In this document: positions 6,781 through 48,432 of the stretch, piece by piece | Layout: the number at the start of each line of letters is the position of its first letter | Numbering within the stretch: position 1 is the first letter of the stretch | From: a virus | Direction: 5' to 3' (one strand) | IMG/VR virus record: IMGVR_UViG_3300035670_000336 | Coordinates: 1-48,432 of that record | DNA: 48,432 nucleotides | Notes under the pieces: generated by a model | Told to the model about the DNA's origin: nothing | Seen by the model: only the letters and a program-made list of their open reading frames with translations | The model's database searches: none | Program-made: the position numbers and the translations under genes

Positions 6781-9317
6781 AGATCATCCTCGAGGGCGTC
6801 GCAGGCAAGAAATTCGGGAGAGAGTACAACCTCAACGTCCAGAACCCCAATGACGCTATAAGAGCTCTATGCCACAAGATCCCAGGATTCCGCACTTTTA
6901 TGGAGGGCTCCCATGAGTGCGGGATCTATTGGCGCGTACTAACCAACCGTAATAGGGAAGGAGTTAGTGCGGAAGAACTGGGGATGAACTGCACTGAACT
7001 TGTATTAGTACCAGTAATCACAGGCGCAATTGAGTGGAAGGATATTCTGAACATTTTCCTAGGCATTGTTCTGATTGTCTTTGCCTTTACAGGATTTGGC
7101 CTGGTTGCCTTTGGCGCTGCGGGCACAATTTCAGCGGGGATTCAGACAGCGATTGCCGCGTTAGGCTTTGGTTTACTATTCACGGGTGTTGCTGGTCTTC
7201 TGAGTCCAGGTACTCCGCAGGGTGATAATTACACTGAAGGCAAAGAAGCTGATGACGCCGTATTCGATGGGGCAATCGCCACAGCAAACGCTGGTACCCC
7301 TATACCACTTCTGTACGGAACCTTCTTATGTCAGAGCATTCCCGTTATCTCGTCTTACATCGATGACAACAAAGGCTATTATCTGGGCGTAATTTCTGAA
7401 GGTCAGATCGAGGGCCTTGCGGGTGACGCTAAGGACAACATATATCTAAACGGAGCCCGCCTGGCTTCGTCGAGTGTCGACAACATTGAGCTTACAGACG
7501 GGGCGCAAACCGCTCAACCATGCTCGTTCGTTAAGTCTGGTGGCTTTCACTTGTCAGCAGGCGCGTCATTGCAAGCAATGGATGGTTCAGATCCCAACCA
7601 GCAAATCATCCGCTCCTTTCAACAGCCCTACGCTGACACATTGAAAATTAGATTGCAGTACGGTCCTTGCTACTGCATCAATAGCTATGGAGCTGAGGGT
7701 ACAGCATGGACAAAATATGTTGATTACACGACGAGGGGCAAAACCAACTTTCTCAGATACATTGTCGACTGTATTGATGGAACGGGAACAACATTTTTTA
7801 GCGAGATCTACGAATGGGGGAACAAAGGGGCGGTAAAAGCAGCAAAACTTCAGATACTCGAAGTTGACATCAGTGGCGTCGAGCAGCCTATAAGTATCCG
7901 CATAACCAGACTAGATAGGGGAGCCCCACCGGATCCTGAAAATTCAGCAGGTGATAAGAGCAGTACGAGCTGGCAGTGGGTTAAAGGCGATGTCACATTT
8001 GTATCAGCAGACATTATGTGGAGCGAAAAGCTGCTCTACCCCAACACCTCTCTTCTGGGGCTGAAGTTCGACGTGTCAGAATTCACGCAGATGCCGACAA
8101 TTTACGCAAAGTGCAAGGGCCTCAAGGTTCCAACAATAAGCAGCAGTCTTACGATTAGCTATGCCTACAGCACCAACCCCGCGTACGTACTTTTAGACTT
8201 GCTGACCAACCCCAGATACGGCACGGGTGGTAGGAAATACACAAAAAGCAGCGGCAGTGGAGGGACAGTCATCCAACCCGGCATTCTAATGTCGGATGTA
8301 GATCTTGCTTCGTTCAGAGAAGCCGCTAAGTATTGCGAAGATAACTCGATCACATTTAATGGGGTCATTGATGGGTCATCGGATGCCTACGACTTGATCA
8401 AGGGCGTTGCTGCAGTATTCCAGGCGCAGATATTTTACGCCGGCGGAAAGATTGGAGTAGTTGTGGACAAACCATATACGTCAGAAGCCGACATAAAACT
8501 GTTTACTGAATCAAACGTGATTCAAGAGAAGGATGAAAAGGGTGAGGTCAAATCCCCATGCTTCACTTATGAAGGGGTAGCGAAAGCAGCAAGACGCACA
8601 GTTGCAGATGTTAGCTTTATAGACCCGAATCGTTTTTATCAAGAGACAAAGGTAGCCGTTAACCACCCGGAGGGTATAGAGCGCTACGGCTATCGCCCTG
8701 TGCAAATTAGGGCTCTGGGCTGCACAGATAAGAAACAAGCTAAGCGGCTGGGGAGATATACGATCGCAAGCAACATATACAACACAGAAACAGTTTCATT
8801 CAAGGTGGCGAGCGAGGGAATTCTTCTGCTGCCAGGAGATATCATCATGATCGCGGATGGCTATAAGACCCCCGGCACTTATGGCGGAAGGGTAAGTTCA
8901 GCATCTACTACATCCGTGACCATTGACCGGGATCTACCCAGCGGCAGCTATACCGGTTATCAAATGTATGTGTACGGCTCAACTGGAGTCTGCATGAAAG
9001 CCAGTGTTACAGGGAGGGCGGGAAGGATCATTTCTACAAGCGCCTACAGCTCAACTCCCACAACTCTACATTCATGGATTCTTGTAGATGAATCCGATGA
9101 TAAGGCGTTCCGGCTATACAGGGTACAAGAAGTTACAGAAGAGACAAACGGAACCTATCAGGTTGTAGCCATCAAATACGATCAAAGGAAGTATGACTTT
9201 ATGAATGATGAAACGAAGGATGACCTCTCGGCATTAGGCACCAATCTGTTTTCCCCTCTCGGATCACCGAAGCTCCTGCCAGGCGGGATTACATTTGGGC
9301 TATTGGTAAACCCATAA
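6777..9317 (+). CDS. Tail assembly protein I / central tip protein J fusion
   Basis: 846 residues. Residues 1-80 form a beta-grasp domain like lambda gpI (MKIILEGVAGKKFGREY, then FMEGSHECGIYWRVL and LVPVITGA). A hydrophobic Gly/Ala-rich stretch follows at about 95-145, then LSPGTPQG and NAGTPIPLLYGTFL, the C-terminal signature of gpI. Without a stop the chain continues into a gpJ-like tip protein (LLTNPRYGTG near residue 480, a catalogue-typical block of J). In lambda, I and J are separate genes. J is the tail spike/hub that touches the host receptor. The start overlaps the JAB gene by four bases. Confidence 0.83.
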   Translation: MKIILEGVAGKKFGREYNLNVQNPNDAIRALCHKIPGFRTFMEGSHECGIYWRVLTNRNREGVSAEELGMNCTELVLVPVITGAIEWKDILNIFLGIVLIVFAFTGFGLVAFGAAGTISAGIQTAIAALGFGLLFTGVAGLLSPGTPQGDNYTEGKEADDAVFDGAIATANAGTPIPLLYGTFLCQSIPVISSYIDDNKGYYLGVISEGQIEGLAGDAKDNIYLNGARLASSSVDNIELTDGAQTAQPCSFVKSGGFHLSAGASLQAMDGSDPNQQIIRSFQQPYADTLKIRLQYGPCYCINSYGAEGTAWTKYVDYTTRGKTNFLRYIVDCIDGTGTTFFSEIYEWGNKGAVKAAKLQILEVDISGVEQPISIRITRLDRGAPPDPENSAGDKSSTSWQWVKGDVTFVSADIMWSEKLLYPNTSLLGLKFDVSEFTQMPTIYAKCKGLKVPTISSSLTISYAYSTNPAYVLLDLLTNPRYGTGGRKYTKSSGSGGTVIQPGILMSDVDLASFREAAKYCEDNSITFNGVIDGSSDAYDLIKGVAAVFQAQIFYAGGKIGVVVDKPYTSEADIKLFTESNVIQEKDEKGEVKSPCFTYEGVAKAARRTVADVSFIDPNRFYQETKVAVNHPEGIERYGYRPVQIRALGCTDKKQAKRLGRYTIASNIYNTETVSFKVASEGILLLPGDIIMIADGYKTPGTYGGRVSSASTTSVTIDRDLPSGSYTGYQMYVYGSTGVCMKASVTGRAGRIISTSAYSSTPTTLHSWILVDESDDKAFRLYRVQEVTEETNGTYQVVAIKYDQRKYDFMNDETKDDLSALGTNLFSPLGSPKLLPGGITFGLLVNP

Positions 9318-9682
9318 TGAGCTTCAATTCAAAGATCACGATCAATTGGCCCTTCTTGGGCTATAGAGAATTTGTAATAACCGACCTTCTCTATCCCGGA
9401 ACGACTTTTGGTCAGTACGTCCCTGATACTAGGCTACTTCACTACGAAGTTGAGTACCAGACGGATGATGATCCTGATCAGTGGTTCAGCATGGGGAGGT
9501 CCGGGCAGAATAGCGCCCAACTGACTACTACGTTCGAAAGAGCCGTTAGAGTTAGGATTAGGGCAGCTTTACGCTCAGGCGAATTATCGCCATGGGAGAC
9601 ATCCGATTGGTTAGTGCTGTACGGGTTTACAGCCGACCTACGGGCGTATAGGAACATGACACCGTTTTTGGGAATCATCTAA
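9317..9682 (+). CDS. Small tail-tip protein, fibronectin-III-like
   Basis: 121 residues. The block HYEVEYQTDDDP..WFSMG..VRVRIRAALRSGELSPW has the strand pattern and closing motif of a fibronectin type III domain (YEVEY..., then VRVRI.A...G.SPWE). In lambda-like phages such domains are part of the gpJ C-terminus; here one appears as a separate gene right after the I-J fusion, starting in an ATG/stop overlap. Probably a structural add-on of the tip; the FN3 call is from pattern only. Confidence 0.65.
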   Translation: MSFNSKITINWPFLGYREFVITDLLYPGTTFGQYVPDTRLLHYEVEYQTDDDPDQWFSMGRSGQNSAQLTTTFERAVRVRIRAALRSGELSPWETSDWLVLYGFTADLRAYRNMTPFLGII

Positions 9683-10093
9683 ATGTCACTCTTTGGTAGA
9701 GACGCCAACGGTAACGACGCCTACATAAAAGCGTCGGGGGCAGGTACAGTCACGGATTCCTTTGTGACTTACCATGACATCTATAGCAATGACCTGAAAC
9801 AACAGGTTGCCAACCTTAATGCGTCTGGTGATGTTATCGGACTAGTATCGGGAAAAAAGTTACGCATCCTGAGCATCACAATGAGCGCAAGCCAGGAAGC
9901 CAGCATTAAATTCCAATCCGATGGAGTTGATGACGTCACCGGTAACTTCTATTTAGCTCAACGTGGGACAGTATCCATAAGCAACCCGCTCGGTGTATTC
10001 CAGACCGACATGGGTGAAAAGCTGAACGCTGTTATTACTTGGGCAGGTACAGCCGGCACAATTGGAATGACAGTTAGCTACCGAGAGGTCTAA
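9683..10093 (+). CDS. Small structural protein, unknown
   Basis: 136 residues, not recognised by name. It is beta-rich and polar, with alternating hydrophobic residues (RILSITMSASQEASIKFQ, KLNAVITWAGTAGTIGMTVSY) typical of small jelly-roll or sandwich virion proteins common in cyanophage tail regions. No signal peptide, membrane segment or enzymatic motif. It is packed one base after the FN3-like gene and overlaps the next gene by one base, so it belongs to the tail operon. Confidence 0.7.
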   Translation: MSLFGRDANGNDAYIKASGAGTVTDSFVTYHDIYSNDLKQQVANLNASGDVIGLVSGKKLRILSITMSASQEASIKFQSDGVDDVTGNFYLAQRGTVSISNPLGVFQTDMGEKLNAVITWAGTAGTIGMTVSYREV

Positions 10094-10836
10094 TGACCAG
10101 GGTATTTGGCCGTATATTTGAGGATGGAAGGTGCGGAGTGCTAGGCATCAAGCCCTCAAGGCCTTTTTTTGGGGCGGACAAATACGAGCGGCACTACCCG
10201 GTGATAAACGGTGAAATCGATATTGAGTTAACCCCTACCCCTGCTGGGGTGTACTACAACGTAGGATTCAAGGATGACGGCGATATTCGAGACACCATCT
10301 TCACACTAATGTGGAGGATACCGAATACTGGCGAAGTCAATCTCACCCGCTCACAAGACCCTAAATCAATTCCCGACAGCGGAAAGGACTCTCTGACAGC
10401 AGTGAGCAATCGACGCTTAGCAGGGGAACTGGCTGAAGCTCTAGCTGAAAAGTTAGAAATTCAGGCACAACTGGAGCAGCAAAAACAGATTATCGACAAA
10501 TTATCCACTCGAATCAAAGGGTTGGAAAAGTCAACCGAGGGCGCACTGAGCGCACGCGACAAAGAAATCGCGACACTTCGTCAGGCCACTGAACCAATCA
10601 TCAAGAAGGTATATGAGCGCATCCCGGTCCCACCAAAACCACTCCAAGAGCGCATCAACTTCCTTGAAGCGGAGAACAAGAGGCTGACCGAACTAAATGA
10701 TATCTATTACAAGTCTGTGCTTGAGCTACATCAGCTAAAGTTAGATAGAGCGCAGACAGCGAGTCTTCCACAGACTGTTGAAGATATACCGGACAACCCC
10801 CGGGCGCGCCTGATCCAGAAGTTAAGGGCTAAATAG
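10093..10836 (+). CDS. Tail-region protein with beta N-domain and long coiled coil
   Basis: 247 residues. Residues 1-95 look beta-rich; residues about 110-215 form a heptad-rich coiled coil (LAEALAEKLEIQAQLEQQKQ, then KLSTRIKGLEKS), interrupted by a Pro-rich hinge (RIPVPPKPL) near 175. This build suits a trimeric or dimeric stalk protein in the tail tip or fibre base. No family recognised. It overlaps the upstream stop by one base and lies two bases before the following gene. Confidence 0.72.
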   Translation: MTRVFGRIFEDGRCGVLGIKPSRPFFGADKYERHYPVINGEIDIELTPTPAGVYYNVGFKDDGDIRDTIFTLMWRIPNTGEVNLTRSQDPKSIPDSGKDSLTAVSNRRLAGELAEALAEKLEIQAQLEQQKQIIDKLSTRIKGLEKSTEGALSARDKEIATLRQATEPIIKKVYERIPVPPKPLQERINFLEAENKRLTELNDIYYKSVLELHQLKLDRAQTASLPQTVEDIPDNPRARLIQKLRAK

Positions 10837-10838
10837 CA

Positions 10839-11555
10839 ATGGCACTGGACCCTATTGCGATTACGGTGCGCGAGGGGGACAGCTTCGACGAGCTGTATCT
10901 CAACATCGAGAAGCCATGGGGTACACCCTATGACTACAGCAACTCGGTACTCGTAGCTGATATCCGTCGCTACTTCAACAGTACAACCGATGCTGCTGTT
11001 GACTCGTTTGGCATTGTTGAAATTGACCCCAGCGCCGGCGTCGTTCAACTCCGTTTGACCAGCCGTCAGACCGAGGCGCTCGGGCGTAACATCCCCCTCG
11101 CCTATGAAGAGCGCGGAATCTCCCAGTCTGGTATCTCATTCGGGGTTGACCCCTCGGACGAACCTCAAGGCAAGTTCTTGTGGGATTTACGGGAGTACTA
11201 CACCGTCCCTCAGGCCACCATCAACGGTGTCAGTTCGGGCACAGCCTTCACCAGCTCCGCCGGTGTAACAAGCAACCGTGTCCGCATCACCACCGCGACT
11301 CCGCATAAGTTGACTGAGCGTGATCAGATTCTGATCACAGGAACGGGGCAAACTGTTTACGACGGGGTTAATTTCTACTCCAACGATCTGGCAATCATTA
11401 GCAGCACAGTTTTTGAGCTTGTACCCACAACTGCGGGTGCACCTGTATTTTCTGTGGGTGCTAGCTCAGGTACAATATCGGTGTATAAAGAAGATACGTT
11501 GGCTATTGGAACACTTGAAGTGATCCCACGTATCTCACGAGATTCTGTTAGCTGA
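10839..11555 (+). CDS. Baseplate/fibre protein with BppU-like core and inserted FCCH-like domain
   Basis: 238 residues. The first about 128 residues and the last about 20 resemble the small BppU N-domain-like protein encoded at 26487-26828 on the other strand (ITVREGDSF...L, ...VADIRR..., GVVQLRLTS, KFLWDL). Between them, at about residues 130-215, sits a second domain (RITTATPHKLTERDQILITG...STVFELVPTTAGAPVF) like the FCCH-type 'HGFxxGDxVxxxG' domains seen in many phage proteins; a related copy is in the protein at 15334-16146. Such proteins usually join fibres to the tail. The operon context fits. Confidence 0.68.
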   Translation: MALDPIAITVREGDSFDELYLNIEKPWGTPYDYSNSVLVADIRRYFNSTTDAAVDSFGIVEIDPSAGVVQLRLTSRQTEALGRNIPLAYEERGISQSGISFGVDPSDEPQGKFLWDLREYYTVPQATINGVSSGTAFTSSAGVTSNRVRITTATPHKLTERDQILITGTGQTVYDGVNFYSNDLAIISSTVFELVPTTAGAPVFSVGASSGTISVYKEDTLAIGTLEVIPRISRDSVS

Positions 11556-37564: not shown

Positions 37565-39391
37565 TTATTTAGCGGACCAGTCATCCCCGCACCCAGGCTC
37601 AGCAACGATGGGCACGTTGGTGATGCACACCTCATACGCCGCTTCCTCCATGCAGCGCTTCAAGGTTTCCATCGCCTCTTCAACACGGTCATCCGGCGCC
37701 TCCATCACGCATTCGTCATGCACACATGCGACTAGGCGAATATCCGGATTGACTACGAGATAGCTCTCCCACAGCATCGCCAGCGCCGCCTTCATGCAGT
37801 CCCCACCTGTACCTTGCACCTGTGTATTCAGGCGAACAGTAAAGCGATCTGTTTCCCCTGGAACAAGGAGACGACGACGTCCCATCAGGGTTTTGACCTG
37901 CAGTTCCGGTCGATTTCCCTGAGTTTTCTGCCAACCAATCAGCTGCGGATAGGCACGACGCCACTGAGAAAGCTTCTCTTCTGCCTCTTTGAGCGGCATG
38001 TCGACACCGTACTGGGCAACTGCTTGCTTTTGAATTGTTTTCGCACCCGCACCATAGAGGGCGCCAAAGTTAATAATTTTTGCGGAAGTCCGAGCAGACT
38101 TATCAATTTGATCCTCCGGTTTGTTCAGCATTAGAGAAGCTGTCCGCAGATGAAGATCGGCATCTTCCCGATACGCCTGGGCCATCCGCTCCTCACCGCT
38201 GCACTCTGCAGCAATCCGCAGCTCTAGCTGGGAGTAGTCCGCAATGATCAGCTTGTGACCCGGTGCAGCTCGAAAACCCTGACGGTGCTCTTTGCTTCGG
38301 TTGACCTGCTGAAGGTTGGGACCTGAGCAGGATGCCCGCCCCGTATCCGTTCCGCACTGTCGGTAAGAAGCACGAATCCGGTGATCTGGATACTCTTTGG
38401 CGTGACCAATCAGCTTCTCAATTTGTGAGCACTCAGTCGCCGCATGTTTGTAGCGAAGGTACTGACGGACAATCGGGTAATCAGGAGCCAGGAAAGCCAG
38501 AACGTTCTGATCAAGACTCCCCGTCACTGGCACCCCAGCTGCCCTAAACACAGGTGCCAACTGGGCTGGTGAGCGTAAGTTGAAGCCCTTGATCTTGTTT
38601 TTACCCCTGCCGTAGAACGCGGGGTGAATCATCACTTCGCCTGTTTCAGGGTTTTTGTACTCCTCCAGCACACCCAGCTCTTCGAAGTGGGAGACCACGT
38701 CCTTCTCGACCTCGTCACAGGCAGCTCGCCTGTCAACCAAAAGCTGCTCGTAGTGCTCAACATCTAGTAGGAAGCCGTTATACGTCATGCTGGCGAATGC
38801 TGGCAGACAGCGGCACTCCAGCTTGAAGATGTGAGTCAGCTCCTCTTTCTTGAGCTTTTCCCGCAACTTGTCGTACAGGGGGAACAGAAGCGCCACATCG
38901 CGGGAGGCGTAATCAAGCTGCTCCGGGGTGAACGGACCCTCGTGCCCAATGAAGCTCTTTTGCAGCTCCTTCTTGTCCTCAAGCCGAATAGCAAGGTAAC
39001 GCTGCACCAAGGAGCCGAGGTCATTCTTGTGCCTAAGCCCCAGATTGACCAGGCGTGCCCCAAGCATGGTGTCGAGGAGAGGTCCCCGCAGTGGAAGCCC
39101 ATTGGCCTCCAGGAACCCCCAGTCGAACGCCAGGTTCTGACCGAGCTTGGCGATTCGCGGAGCGGCAAGCACTGGCGCCAAATGACGGAGCTCATCCTTC
39201 AACTGACGGCAGTCAAAGACAAAAACCCTGTCAGGCAGCCCGATTTGAAGCAGCAGAAGCTGATCCACAATCGGATTGAGCCCGGTCGTCTCCACGTCGA
39301 CCGCCAGCATCCGAGCCTGAGCCAGCAGAGGTACGACCTCCCTGACTTTTGACCCACTGGTCACAAGCGTGAAAGTTGTCGGCGAGCTCAT
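37565..39391 (-). CDS. polA: DNA polymerase family A with 3'-5' exonuclease
   Basis: 608 residues. Residues 20-200: 3'-5' exonuclease (Exo I DVETTGLNP, Exo II LGQNLAFDWGFL, Exo III YASRDV). The polymerase domain follows: motif A LIIADYSQLELRIAAECS, motif B (RTSAKIINFGALYGAG), motif C VHDE. The residue equivalent to E. coli Phe762 is Phe (KIINFGALY). There is no 5'-3' exonuclease domain, as usual in phages. It is the replicative polymerase, next to the prim-pol/helicase. The N-terminus overlaps an upstream open frame by about 160 bases, so a later start (near MLAVDVETTG) cannot be ruled out. Confidence 0.95.
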   Translation of the reverse strand: MSSPTTFTLVTSGSKVREVVPLLAQARMLAVDVETTGLNPIVDQLLLLQIGLPDRVFVFDCRQLKDELRHLAPVLAAPRIAKLGQNLAFDWGFLEANGLPLRGPLLDTMLGARLVNLGLRHKNDLGSLVQRYLAIRLEDKKELQKSFIGHEGPFTPEQLDYASRDVALLFPLYDKLREKLKKEELTHIFKLECRCLPAFASMTYNGFLLDVEHYEQLLVDRRAACDEVEKDVVSHFEELGVLEEYKNPETGEVMIHPAFYGRGKNKIKGFNLRSPAQLAPVFRAAGVPVTGSLDQNVLAFLAPDYPIVRQYLRYKHAATECSQIEKLIGHAKEYPDHRIRASYRQCGTDTGRASCSGPNLQQVNRSKEHRQGFRAAPGHKLIIADYSQLELRIAAECSGEERMAQAYREDADLHLRTASLMLNKPEDQIDKSARTSAKIINFGALYGAGAKTIQKQAVAQYGVDMPLKEAEEKLSQWRRAYPQLIGWQKTQGNRPELQVKTLMGRRRLLVPGETDRFTVRLNTQVQGTGGDCMKAALAMLWESYLVVNPDIRLVACVHDECVMEAPDDRVEEAMETLKRCMEEAAYEVCITNVPIVAEPGCGDDWSAK

Positions 39392-39551
39392 GGAGCAAAG
39401 CGGGGTTCAGAAGGAAAAAAGAGCCCATCGGATGGACCTCGTCCATCAGGGCCAGCGTGATCTCCCCGGCTTCATCGCCCCATAGAGCGATGATCGAGCC
39501 CTCGCGTTCGGTCTCCGCGAAGAAACTCCCGGGTTCAGACGTAATAGGCAT
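39231..39551 (-). CDS. Small protein overlapping the polA start
   Basis: From ATG 39551 (MPITSEPGSFFAETEREG). The first about 70 residues (IIALWGDEAGEITLALMDEV, then MGSFFLLNPALLHELADNFH) look like a genuine small domain. The last about 50 residues (SQGGRTSAGSGSDAGGRRGD...) are read out of frame through the first 160 bases of polA and look like shadow coding. The gene is probably real with a trailing, meaningless C-terminus, or its true end is earlier through an unseen event. Function unknown. Confidence 0.5.
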   Translation of the reverse strand: MPITSEPGSFFAETEREGSIIALWGDEAGEITLALMDEVHPMGSFFLLNPALLHELADNFHACDQWVKSQGGRTSAGSGSDAGGRRGDDRAQSDCGSASAASNRAA

Positions 39552-39729
39552 CCCTGTAACCAAGCCACAGCAATTTATCTGGTCCGTTCTGAGATGGCAA
39601 CCCGTTCTTGTTTTGGCCTGGCCCGACCCATGGCGGTCGCCTCCAGAAGGAATACAAGCGTACTAGCGGCAGCTGTGGATGGGGCAAATATGCACAAAGT
39701 GCATAGGCGCTCAGATCAACTCCTCCCAC
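39535..39729 (-). CDS. Possible small protein between primase and polA
   Basis: 64 residues, open from ATG 39729, which overlaps the primase stop. The second half (NKNGLPSQNGPDKLLWLGYR) is protein-like, and the stop overlaps the next start. The first half (SAYALCAYLPHPQLPLVRLY) is less convincing. It would fill an otherwise empty 150-base gap. Uncertain. Confidence 0.3.
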   Translation of the reverse strand: MGGVDLSAYALCAYLPHPQLPLVRLYSFWRRPPWVGPGQNKNGLPSQNGPDKLLWLGYRDAYYV

Positions 39730-42314
39730 GAGGGAGGTTCACCCTCCAGGTCGTAAGGGGAGAGGTCTAGGTCCCCCTCAAAAGGGGCTTCCTCTACTCT
39801 CTCGCCAGAATTGTCTGATTTGGCAAAAACGTTGCCCTGACAGGATTCTTCAAATCCGACAGGCTCCTCGTGTCTGATTAGCGATAGGTGCACCTGATCA
39901 ACCTCATCCGTAGGCGGATGAAGGTCAGCAGCCGGATGGTCGTTTTCTAATCCGACAGGTAAGGCTGTCTGATTAGCTGTCTGATTTGAAAAACCTAGTA
40001 CGGGAGCGGGTTCTTGCAAATCAGACACACTTTCATGGATATCTCCTCGCGAGGCTGCTGGAAGTTTCGTGTTCGCGGCGGTAACAGCCGCGTAAACCTT
40101 CTCCCGCTTGCCCATCACCCTGTGTTGGTGCTCAGCGTCAAAAGACTCAATCAAGCCACGCTTCCGAAGCCTGGTGAGGCTCTTCTCTATGGCTTTATCT
40201 CCCATGGGCCGCATCAGCAGCGCCTCAAGCTCCTTACGGGTCCGTAGAACGCCCTGGGCGGTGTCTTCCCGCAACTGACCCAACACCTTGTCGATCACCG
40301 GTACAGAGCCACCCTGACGGACCCTGCGGACCGGGGTGTAGTCCTCCAGGTCCATGGTGAAGTCCTCGTTCAGCGTTGTAACGAGCTTGTCTCCCTCTCG
40401 GCCGTTCCGGCTCTTCCCAATCGTGATCACACGCTTTCGGAAGGACTCATCGCCGTACTCGTCGCTCTGGACCTCGCTGTCATCAAGTTTGCGGATCGAC
40501 CACGTCTCTGAAACGGCATCCCGAATCGAGCTGTGCCCCCTGAATCCGCCCTGGCGGTTGTTGTGGTGGATGATCAAGAAGCAGGTGGCCGGCCAAAGCA
40601 ACCCGTTGTTGTTCTCCAGCCAGTACAGCCCTGACGAGGCGATCTGCTTGTTGCCGTCGATGGTCGGTTGGCTCGCGCTGAGGGAGTCGATGACCACCAA
40701 AGCGGGCTGATAGCGGTTCAGCTCATCGACCAAGCGCTTCCGGTAGCTCATCCGGAACCCGTTCCAGACCCGCAGCCAGGAGTCGCGGTGGATGCCCTGG
40801 TCCTCGAATTGCTCCTCAAGGATCTCGGGGCTCTGGTCGGCGTTGCACCACAGCACCAGACCATCCCGCACCGGCACCTGCTCACCACGGATCTTGAAGG
40901 GAAGTCCCCGACCGACGTGTTTGGCGATCACCTGGCAGGCCAGCGACTTGCCGCAGCCACCATCCCCGTGAAACAGAACGGTGTTGGGCCGCTTCAGCAG
41001 GTCAGGGATCAGGTAGTCCGAGCCCTTGATCAGCTTCCGCCGCTCCTCCGGTCCAACAGGCGTGCCGCTGGTCTTGAAGTCGACGTCCTCCTGAAGGGCC
41101 AGCAGGATTTCGTCCGGCGTCATCCGGACCCCGTAGTCATGGGCGAGCTGCATTAGCTCCAACCGCTGCTCCGCCGGGTTACGGAACAGCTCGATGATGT
41201 TGTTCGCCGCCACCAGGAACGACGGGCCGCCTATCGGGTCGTACTTCTTGACCTCCTGAACCTTCTGGATATCACGGAAGTCCTCGGGGTACTTCACCCC
41301 AACGGCTCCAGCGATCTCGATCAGGTAGCCCTCCAGCGTCGCCCCCGCCGGATCACCAGCGTGGATATCCCGGGTCCGTAGGGCGTGCAGCAGTTGCAGC
41401 GCATCCCCACCGGTCTCCTCCTTATGGCAGTACCAGTTGAGGTTGGGCCACAGGGCAAAGCTCTTCCCGCTGTTGCTGTCATGGAAGGGACACCCCCCGA
41501 CCAGCACGTCGCTGTTGCCTCCCTCCGGTTGCAGGGGCTGGAACCCCTCTTCCCACACCTCTGAATAGAAGAGCTGATCGAAAGCGCTCTCATGCGCCGT
41601 CAGCTTTTCCAGCAGACCACCCTCCATAAAGAAGTGGCGTCGCATCTGCCGGTTGGTGAACTCCGTCGCCGCATCGCTCTTCTCCAGGTACGAGGCCGGT
41701 AGGAAGCTGTGGACCTCCTTGGGCTCCGCCTGATCCATCAGGAAGTTGACCAACCACCCCGGCGCTGGGGCAACCTTGCCCTCGTTGTACGAAATCCATT
41801 CGTAGGGCTGCTTGGTATCCGGGTGTTCAGAGCCGGGAATCACCGAGTAGCAGCCGTTGTATCGAACGCACACCTCCTCATCGGTGCCCTTCAGCTCCTC
41901 GACCATCTGGGCCTTGGTGAAGTTGGTGAGCAGCCCACGCAGGCTGTCGGGCACCTTGTAGACCAGTTGGCGACGACCAGGCCGGCCCCTCCAGGACATA
42001 GTCGCCGGATCCTCCACGCCAGGCCACTGCTCTCCTAGAAGGGCCTTGAACGCCTCTTCCGCCAGCGGACCATCGATATCAACCGCGATCAAACCGTTAC
42101 TGGCGTCGCCGGTGACCACACCGATACCTGTCCGGTGGGTGAGCTCCTCCCACTTGGACAACGCCTCCTGGGGCGACAGCGGATCCTTGGAGGTCCCAGC
42201 CCCGAAGGCCGCCTTCCCCCTCACCAAAACCCACTTCCAGTCTGCGGGGAGCATCTCCCGACGCAACTGCTCAATCGCCGCCAGGTTAGGTCCGAACATA
42301 AAAGCCATATCCAT
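39711..42314 (-). CDS. Prim-pol (AEP) primase / RecA-type helicase
   Basis: 867 residues. N-terminal AEP prim-pol: GIGVVTGDASNGLIAVDIDG with acidic D79 and D81. A zinc-finger-like element (CPFHDSNSGKSF then WYCHKEETGGD; C275, H278, C296, H297) follows. The helicase core has Walker A HGDGGCGKS (449-457) and Walker B ALVVIDSLS (538-545). A winged-helix-like part (LRTRKELEALLMRPMGDKAI, near 690-730) precedes a low-complexity tail from about 755, whose DNA contains seven iteron-like repeats. It primes and unwinds at the replication fork, and by analogy may bind its own origin. Confidence 0.85.
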   Translation of the reverse strand: MDMAFMFGPNLAAIEQLRREMLPADWKWVLVRGKAAFGAGTSKDPLSPQEALSKWEELTHRTGIGVVTGDASNGLIAVDIDGPLAEEAFKALLGEQWPGVEDPATMSWRGRPGRRQLVYKVPDSLRGLLTNFTKAQMVEELKGTDEEVCVRYNGCYSVIPGSEHPDTKQPYEWISYNEGKVAPAPGWLVNFLMDQAEPKEVHSFLPASYLEKSDAATEFTNRQMRRHFFMEGGLLEKLTAHESAFDQLFYSEVWEEGFQPLQPEGGNSDVLVGGCPFHDSNSGKSFALWPNLNWYCHKEETGGDALQLLHALRTRDIHAGDPAGATLEGYLIEIAGAVGVKYPEDFRDIQKVQEVKKYDPIGGPSFLVAANNIIELFRNPAEQRLELMQLAHDYGVRMTPDEILLALQEDVDFKTSGTPVGPEERRKLIKGSDYLIPDLLKRPNTVLFHGDGGCGKSLACQVIAKHVGRGLPFKIRGEQVPVRDGLVLWCNADQSPEILEEQFEDQGIHRDSWLRVWNGFRMSYRKRLVDELNRYQPALVVIDSLSASQPTIDGNKQIASSGLYWLENNNGLLWPATCFLIIHHNNRQGGFRGHSSIRDAVSETWSIRKLDDSEVQSDEYGDESFRKRVITIGKSRNGREGDKLVTTLNEDFTMDLEDYTPVRRVRQGGSVPVIDKVLGQLREDTAQGVLRTRKELEALLMRPMGDKAIEKSLTRLRKRGLIESFDAEHQHRVMGKREKVYAAVTAANTKLPAASRGDIHESVSDLQEPAPVLGFSNQTANQTALPVGLENDHPAADLHPPTDEVDQVHLSLIRHEEPVGFEESCQGNVFAKSDNSGERVEEAPFEGDLDLSPYDLEGEPPSWEELI
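39812..40027. repeat. Seven iteron-like 11-bp repeats, candidate replication origin
   Basis: The motif CWAATCMGACA (or its complement TGTCKGATTWG) occurs exactly at 39812-39822, 39851-39861, 39871-39881, 39947-39957, 39966-39976, 39978-39988 and 40017-40027. Four copies read TGTC... on the plus strand and three CWAATC... Within the coding strand of the primase the CWAATCAGACA copies fall in all three codon registers, so they are kept as DNA, not as protein. A 7-bp hairpin (TCATCCG-TAGG-CGGATGA, 39904-39921) lies in the middle. Lambda has its origin iterons inside its initiator gene O; the parallel suggests a replication origin here. Confidence 0.6.
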
Positions 42315-48288: not shown

Positions 48289-48432
48289 ACGGGAAGTAGG
48301 GGTAGCGGGTTGACACCCCCAGAACCCAGCCCTAGACTCGGTCTATGTTTCTATGTATGTATATTTAATTACACAAGTCCAGCATTTTGTATAAGATATA
48401 AAACTACTAAATATAAAGTATTAATCAAGAGT
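48289..48432. other. Non-coding right edge
   Basis: 144 bases without a gene. The last 90 bases are very AT-rich and unlike the rest. It contains the promoter candidate below and a leader for a gene beyond the edge. Confidence 0.6.
48310..48338 (+). promoter_or_regulatory. Sigma-70-like promoter at the right edge
   Basis: Perfect TTGACA (48310-48315), 17-base spacer, TAGACT (48333-48338; 4 of 6 to TATAAT). Likely drives the next plus-strand gene, outside the window. Confidence 0.55.

Follow-up and report, generated by a model that had tools for sequence, protein, structure and literature searches.

Does a phage gene for a fused primase and helicase carry, inside its own coding sequence, the origin at which its product starts replication? 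The question is raised by the window, a 48,432-nucleotide stretch of viral DNA analysed here over its full length, in which one short word recurs within the last ~320 bases of a prim-pol/helicase gene (39711-42314, minus strand). Judged from sequence comparison, these repeats are probably the iterons of a phage replication origin lying in the 3' coding tail of the initiator's own gene, a reading to which we assign a probability of roughly 0.8. It had been put forward in the earlier note on this DNA and is now supported by selection on the repeats as DNA, the conserved architecture of the array, concerted switches of the iteron word between relatives, and co-variation of that word with the recognition helix of the protein itself.

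The putative initiator has 867 residues and Pfam matches to Prim-Pol (6e-20) and AAA_25 (3e-12). The gene, its domains and its neighbour are laid out as follows.

39711..42314, minus strand: open reading frame of the 867-aa initiator (AEP prim-pol, RepA-like helicase, winged helix, low-complexity iteron-bearing tail)
41754..42224, minus strand: Prim-Pol (AEP) domain, residues 31-187 (PF09250)
40653..41018, minus strand: RecA-fold helicase domain (AAA_25), residues 433-554 (PF13481)
40080..40304, minus strand: predicted winged-helix DNA-binding domain, residues ~671-745 (AlphaFold2, H1-H2-H3-wing)
40161..40196, minus strand: recognition helix H3, residues 707-718, KAIEKSLTRLRK (column scan)
37565..39391, minus strand: family-A DNA polymerase, the next replication gene downstream (PF00476, 4e-67)

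A model of a wider helicase segment (residues ~354-660), of moderate confidence (pLDDT 68), has RSF1010 RepA (1nlf) as its top Foldseek match (E 3.9e-9, TM 0.49-0.58), with KaiC and RadA close behind; the fold is of the RepA/KaiC/RadA type, so the exact subfamily is not settled. Ahead of the low-complexity tail, where a winged-helix-like part had been suspected, AlphaFold2 indeed predicts a winged helix. This model comprises the canonical H1, H2, H3 and two-strand wing (pLDDT 77-90 over most of the domain; overall confidence moderate, pLDDT 70) and matches MarR/PadR-type winged helices in Foldseek (best E 2e-3). Between the prim-pol and helicase domains, a segment at 41403-41492 (CPFH...WYCHKEETGGD) resembles by eye, with no Pfam match, a possibly degenerate DnaG-type CHC2 zinc motif. 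No homologue of the prim-pol was present among 50,697 records of cultured phages; its relatives were found in IMG/VR, plus one fragment in a MAG contig.

Genes near the prim-pol include, besides the family-A DNA polymerase, those for a dCTP deaminase, a class II ribonucleotide reductase, ThyX and RusA. The ten best phage hits of the reductase are all cyanophages (55-63% identity) and the tail-tip protein is best matched by that of the Synechococcus siphophage S-CBS4 (35%), which makes a cyanobacterial host likely. The interval between the prim-pol and polymerase genes varies: it holds a 110-aa ORF in the window (39231-39563) and a 153-aa ORF in relative L015 (8686-9147), and is almost absent in L012 (5387-5390).

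The motif count reproduced the array as it had been described, with seven exact copies of CWAATCMGACA at 39812-40027, four on the minus and three on the plus strand. In gene order, each an exact motif match, they are:

40017..40027, plus strand: iteron 1, CAAATCAGACA
39978..39988, minus strand: iteron 2, CAAATCAGACA
39966..39976, minus strand: iteron 3, CTAATCAGACA
39947..39957, plus strand: iteron 4, CTAATCCGACA
39871..39881, minus strand: iteron 5, CTAATCAGACA
39851..39861, plus strand: iteron 6, CAAATCCGACA
39812..39822, minus strand: iteron 7, CAAATCAGACA

Chance would yield 0.12 matches in the whole window, none of 100 shuffles gave seven, and the remainder of the window holds no exact copy. 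The same confinement was found in G001 (74,307 bases) and G002 (70,685 bases), which are probably complete circles because their ends overlap by 127 bases: each has its own type of word seven times, always inside the array. In all five long contigs (5/5), the top cluster of short repeats is the one in the prim-pol gene.

Several observations indicate that the repeats are under selection as DNA, as the earlier note had claimed from their codon registers. The four gene-sense copies of CWAATCAGACA stand in registers 2, 2, 1 and 0 and thus occupy all three, both strands are used, and no codon position in the rest of the gene is as well conserved as the iterons. Compared with the 94% identical relative L010 (L008-L010 are identical in the prim-pol gene and count as one relative), 0/77 iteron bases differ, against 44/270 other bases of the tail (Fisher p=9e-6) and 357/2257 other bases of the gene. 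When a comb of the seven sites was slid along the gene, zero differences from L010 were obtained only at the true place, give or take one base. Two further elements lie beside the iterons:

39887..39895, minus strand: another conserved DNA element, next to iteron 5, AGGTGCACC (reading AGGTRYACC in every relative)
40046..40055, minus strand: G+C-rich block upstream (in gene sense) of iteron 1, CCTCGCGAGG (alignment)

AGGTRYACC is kept in seven of seven sequences (the window and its counterparts in L010-L018). Its codon frame differs between the two clades, as do the residues it encodes, which again indicates selection on DNA; possibly the element is the site for a second factor. It is unique in G001, as one palindromic site, and in G004. 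The block upstream of iteron 1 (CCTCGCGRGGAGA) is conserved at the DNA level in most relatives.

In related phages, to which the earlier note had pointed, the place of the array held while the exact word did not: beyond L010 the window's word is absent and each relative has its own at the equivalent position. Where protein identity is 86%, 82% and ~55-60%, the words are GAATGCGACA, WAATGGGACA and CAGTGGGACA, respectively. By contig, AATGCGACA occurs seven times in L011 (86%), AATGGGACA seven times in L012 (82-83%) and is also the word of L014 (60%), and CAGTGGGACA is that of L015 (59%) and L018 (55%). All versions of the word share T-N-N-GACA, with most variation at the two bases preceding GACA. 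L011 and L012 keep the window's order, orientation and spacing within 1 bp (-,40,+,12,+,18,-,77,+,19,-,40,+), and in these ingroup relatives all seven copies have changed together. L014, L015 and L018 retain the distal '+19-40+' module and a tandem 12-bp array.

The layout is symmetric. Sites 1-7 and 2-6 form mirror pairs to the base, sites 3-6 and 4-5 define a second axis 5-6 bp from the first, and L015 and L018 share the outer dyad to within 1 bp. The array inside the gene also folds well (z -4.8), which is accounted for by its inverted iterons. The 7-bp hairpin reported between the copies does exist in the array spacer of the window (TCATCCG-CCTA-CGGATGA), yet it is not a conserved feature: it is lost in L010 and L012, and since its score is at shuffle level in L010, L011 and L012, we dropped it as an origin element. 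A pRN1-like stem-loop downstream was likewise discarded, the region 3' of the gene folding no better than shuffles (z -0.36). The GC-skew switch sought at the array was not seen; the skew extremes lie elsewhere, and skew is uninformative here. Within 1 kb of the array, no 40-bp window exceeds 65% AT in the window, L010, L011, L012 or L014, and AT-rich stretches ~0.75 kb away occur only in L015 and L018. An adjoining AT-rich unwinding element is not needed in every iteron system. The most AT-rich stretch of the window (48341-48430, about 80% AT over 60 bases) is at the contig end, about 8 kb from the iterons.

Which protein, then, reads the array? We scanned every alignable column of the prim-pol protein (n=745) for residues that follow the split set by the two bases preceding GACA, namely {window, L010} / {L011} / {L012, L014, L015, L018}. 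Only 3/745 columns fit, 707 (K/R/S), 710 (E/A/R) and 714 (T/E/Q), a result to be read with only about five independent iteron states known. All three fall within the 12-residue recognition helix (P=3e-6, the helix having first been spotted by eye and the whole protein scanned afterwards), and their spacing of i, i+3, i+7 places them on one helix face; residue 717 (R/R/E) fits a two-way split. Two alternative three-way partitions were matched by no column in any of three alignment modes, and in seven other shared proteins 2 columns in ~1,940 fit the iteron partition. L012 is 95.5% identical to L011 over residues 1-655, yet its helix residues and its GGGACA are those of the outgroup. The best explanation of this co-variation is that the array is read by the initiator's own C-terminal winged helix, whose binding to the iterons we infer. 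Pairings such as E710 with C hinted at a base-to-residue code valid for unrelated winged helices in general, but this was set aside as a DnaD-like loader (L076) misfits the simple alignment.

The main rival accepts this reader and changes its purpose: the winged helix would bind the sites for control (autorepression, copy number or incompatibility), and the true origin would lie elsewhere. The crr of P4 is such a control element for the P4 alpha protein. Co-variation of helix and word fits control sites equally well and cannot by itself separate the two readings; in the direction of transcription, the array sits between the genes for prim-pol and polymerase, an AT-rich element does not adjoin it, and skew does not mark it. 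However, seven dyad-arranged sites ~100-320 bp before a stop codon would make an unusual operator, and the probably complete G001 and G002 contain no second cluster of the same word, hence no alternative origin candidate for this winged helix. We therefore consider control alone improbable, if still deserving of serious attention. Far less likely is binding by some other phage or host protein, be it a transcription regulator, a partition protein or a host factor: uncharacterised proteins are encoded nearby (a 241-aa protein of a divergent gene and a 96-aa protein), but the column scan found in neither of them any residue with the iteron grouping, which led us to reject another phage regulator as reader, and a host factor leaves it unexplained why each lineage has its own word and why the word switches from one close relative to another. 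That the repeats are merely the DNA of a repetitive protein is hardly credible, for although the tail is of low complexity and iterons 2 and 3 encode its NQTANQT, the use of both strands and all three registers refutes this, the iterons are better conserved than any surrounding codon position, and the word switches together in relatives.

Returning to the origin reading, we consider a fuller version of it reasonably likely, if clearly less secure than the assignment of the iterons themselves: a one-protein initiator (prim-pol, RepA-like helicase and iteron-reading winged helix) with a dyad-symmetric bidirectional origin in the 3' coding end of its gene, and a replicon specificity that switches between sibling phages when three or four residues on a single face of the helix are substituted and seven sites change in concert. 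Here we infer binding, origin activity, DNA opening, bidirectionality and the order of events. A single polypeptide would unite the AEP prim-pol, the helicase resembling RSF1010 RepA and the C-terminal winged helix. The latter would bind the seven iterons in two near-coincident dyads (1-7/2-6 and 3-6/4-5) and thereby place helicase-primase assemblies in opposite orientations across the ~70-bp spacer; the RepA-like helicase would then open the DNA, the prim-pol make primers and the adjacent family-A polymerase elongate them. As this polymerase is also encoded next door, the "self-contained replicon" of the earlier note can be used only as a conditional term. The word of each lineage would be matched by residues 707/710/714, from which we would expect no cross-replication between sibling phages that differ in their word.

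Any iteron replicon poses the question of how its initiator and the multiple copies in its origin come to switch specificity in step, and the window family offers natural intermediates within one gene, with the same seven-site layout, different words and a helix that differs at matching positions. Swaps of a few residues and of a single DNA word would thus put the recognition code to a direct test; if our reading is true, these phages form a natural series for reading the code between winged helix and iteron. It would also provide a sequence-only route to origins in uncultivated phages of the window type and explain an odd-looking protein tail as driven by DNA.

When DNA was scanned for the pattern, the same words turned up in unrelated genes of other phages, which encode DnaD-like helicase loaders (phrog_2514): AATCAGACA in L076, AATCCGACA in L090 and AGTGGGACA in L055. 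Like the window's gene, these encode a winged helix followed by intragenic repeats, with shared words such as AATCAGACAGCAAATCAGACA (L076) and AATCCGACA (L090); unlike it, they are small and lack primase and helicase. Across 74 DnaD-like ORFs, the commonest 8-mer averages 3.8 copies versus 2.1 after codon shuffling, and because of this excess a winged helix with iterons behind it in the same gene looks like a widespread arrangement in phages. This makes the location of the iterons less novel and supports the mechanism. In these ORFs (L095-L214, also L055, L076 and L090) the repeats commonly stand around and after the winged helix and often end in ACA. Both the word and the recognition helix vary from one member to the next, so that the loaders form a much larger set for studying the code. 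In L076 (479-1954), a pair of near-identical winged-helix segments in tandem precedes NQTANQTANLTADLTADLT repeats, whose word is the window's own. Homology between the window's winged helix and those of the loaders could not be detected (no match at E<=0.001; hhalign probability 0.2% with L090), and a scan with the L090 loader as query found only itself. In L056, eleven GGGACA-type repeats (8852-9174) lie directly 3' of an unrelated D5-type primase-helicase gene (9187-11154, minus strand), likely another iteron origin at a primase 3' end. Several other matches of the pattern scan (e.g. the NGTS repeats of L042/L050) were discarded as origins and resemble repetitive protein genes instead.

Among known systems, lambda O has iterons inside the initiator's own gene, bound by O itself (PMC7466680), and in this the window is alike. 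However, O contains no primase or helicase and its iterons lie mid-gene beside an AT-rich region, whereas those of the window follow a C-terminal winged helix and have no AT-rich region adjoining; an O-type initiator test gave no O-family match, the gene itself encoding prim-pol and helicase. ORF904 of the Sulfolobus plasmid pRN1 combines AEP prim-pol, helicase and C-terminal winged helix in one polypeptide, with the origin at the gene's 3' end (PMC4234260). It thus shares prim-pol and winged helix with the window protein, but has an SF3 helicase in place of an AAA_25/RepA-like one, and its replication starts at a ~100-nt stem-loop that lies beyond the stop codon and has no iterons, while the window's iterons lie inside the coding region. 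In RSF1010, a RepA-type hexameric helicase, an AEP-type primase and an iteron reader (RepA, RepB' and RepC) act together at the oriV iterons (PMC4234260). The RepA-like RecA-fold helicase (AAA_25; 1nlf match) is common to both; in RSF1010 these are three separate proteins, whereas the window encodes a single polypeptide whose own gene contains the iterons.

SaPI Rep and SCCmec Cch2 read iterons at the 3' end of their genes through the C-terminal domain of a replication helicase (PMC7581432), but these are different helicases without a fused prim-pol, and their iterons lie downstream of the gene and not inside it. In the PLE satellite, the DNA-binding domain of RepA and the origin iterons co-vary and matching pairs are needed (PMC8263062). 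There the change comes by domain swapping at an intergenic origin, whereas the window family displays point changes in one helix and a concerted change of seven intragenic sites. Fusions of an AEP domain to a helicase of the RepA type are on record (PMC5862659), as is gp43 of corynephage BFK20, a replication protein of the prim-pol clade (PMC4538821); the accessible parts of both sources mention no iterons in the genes themselves. The open papers searched yielded no description of a prim-pol/RepA-like initiator whose coding tail contains the iterons, which is in itself weak evidence. Intragenic iterons as such are known from lambda O; what appears new here is their prim-pol and RepA-like version, with specificity switches that are tracked by the recognition helix.
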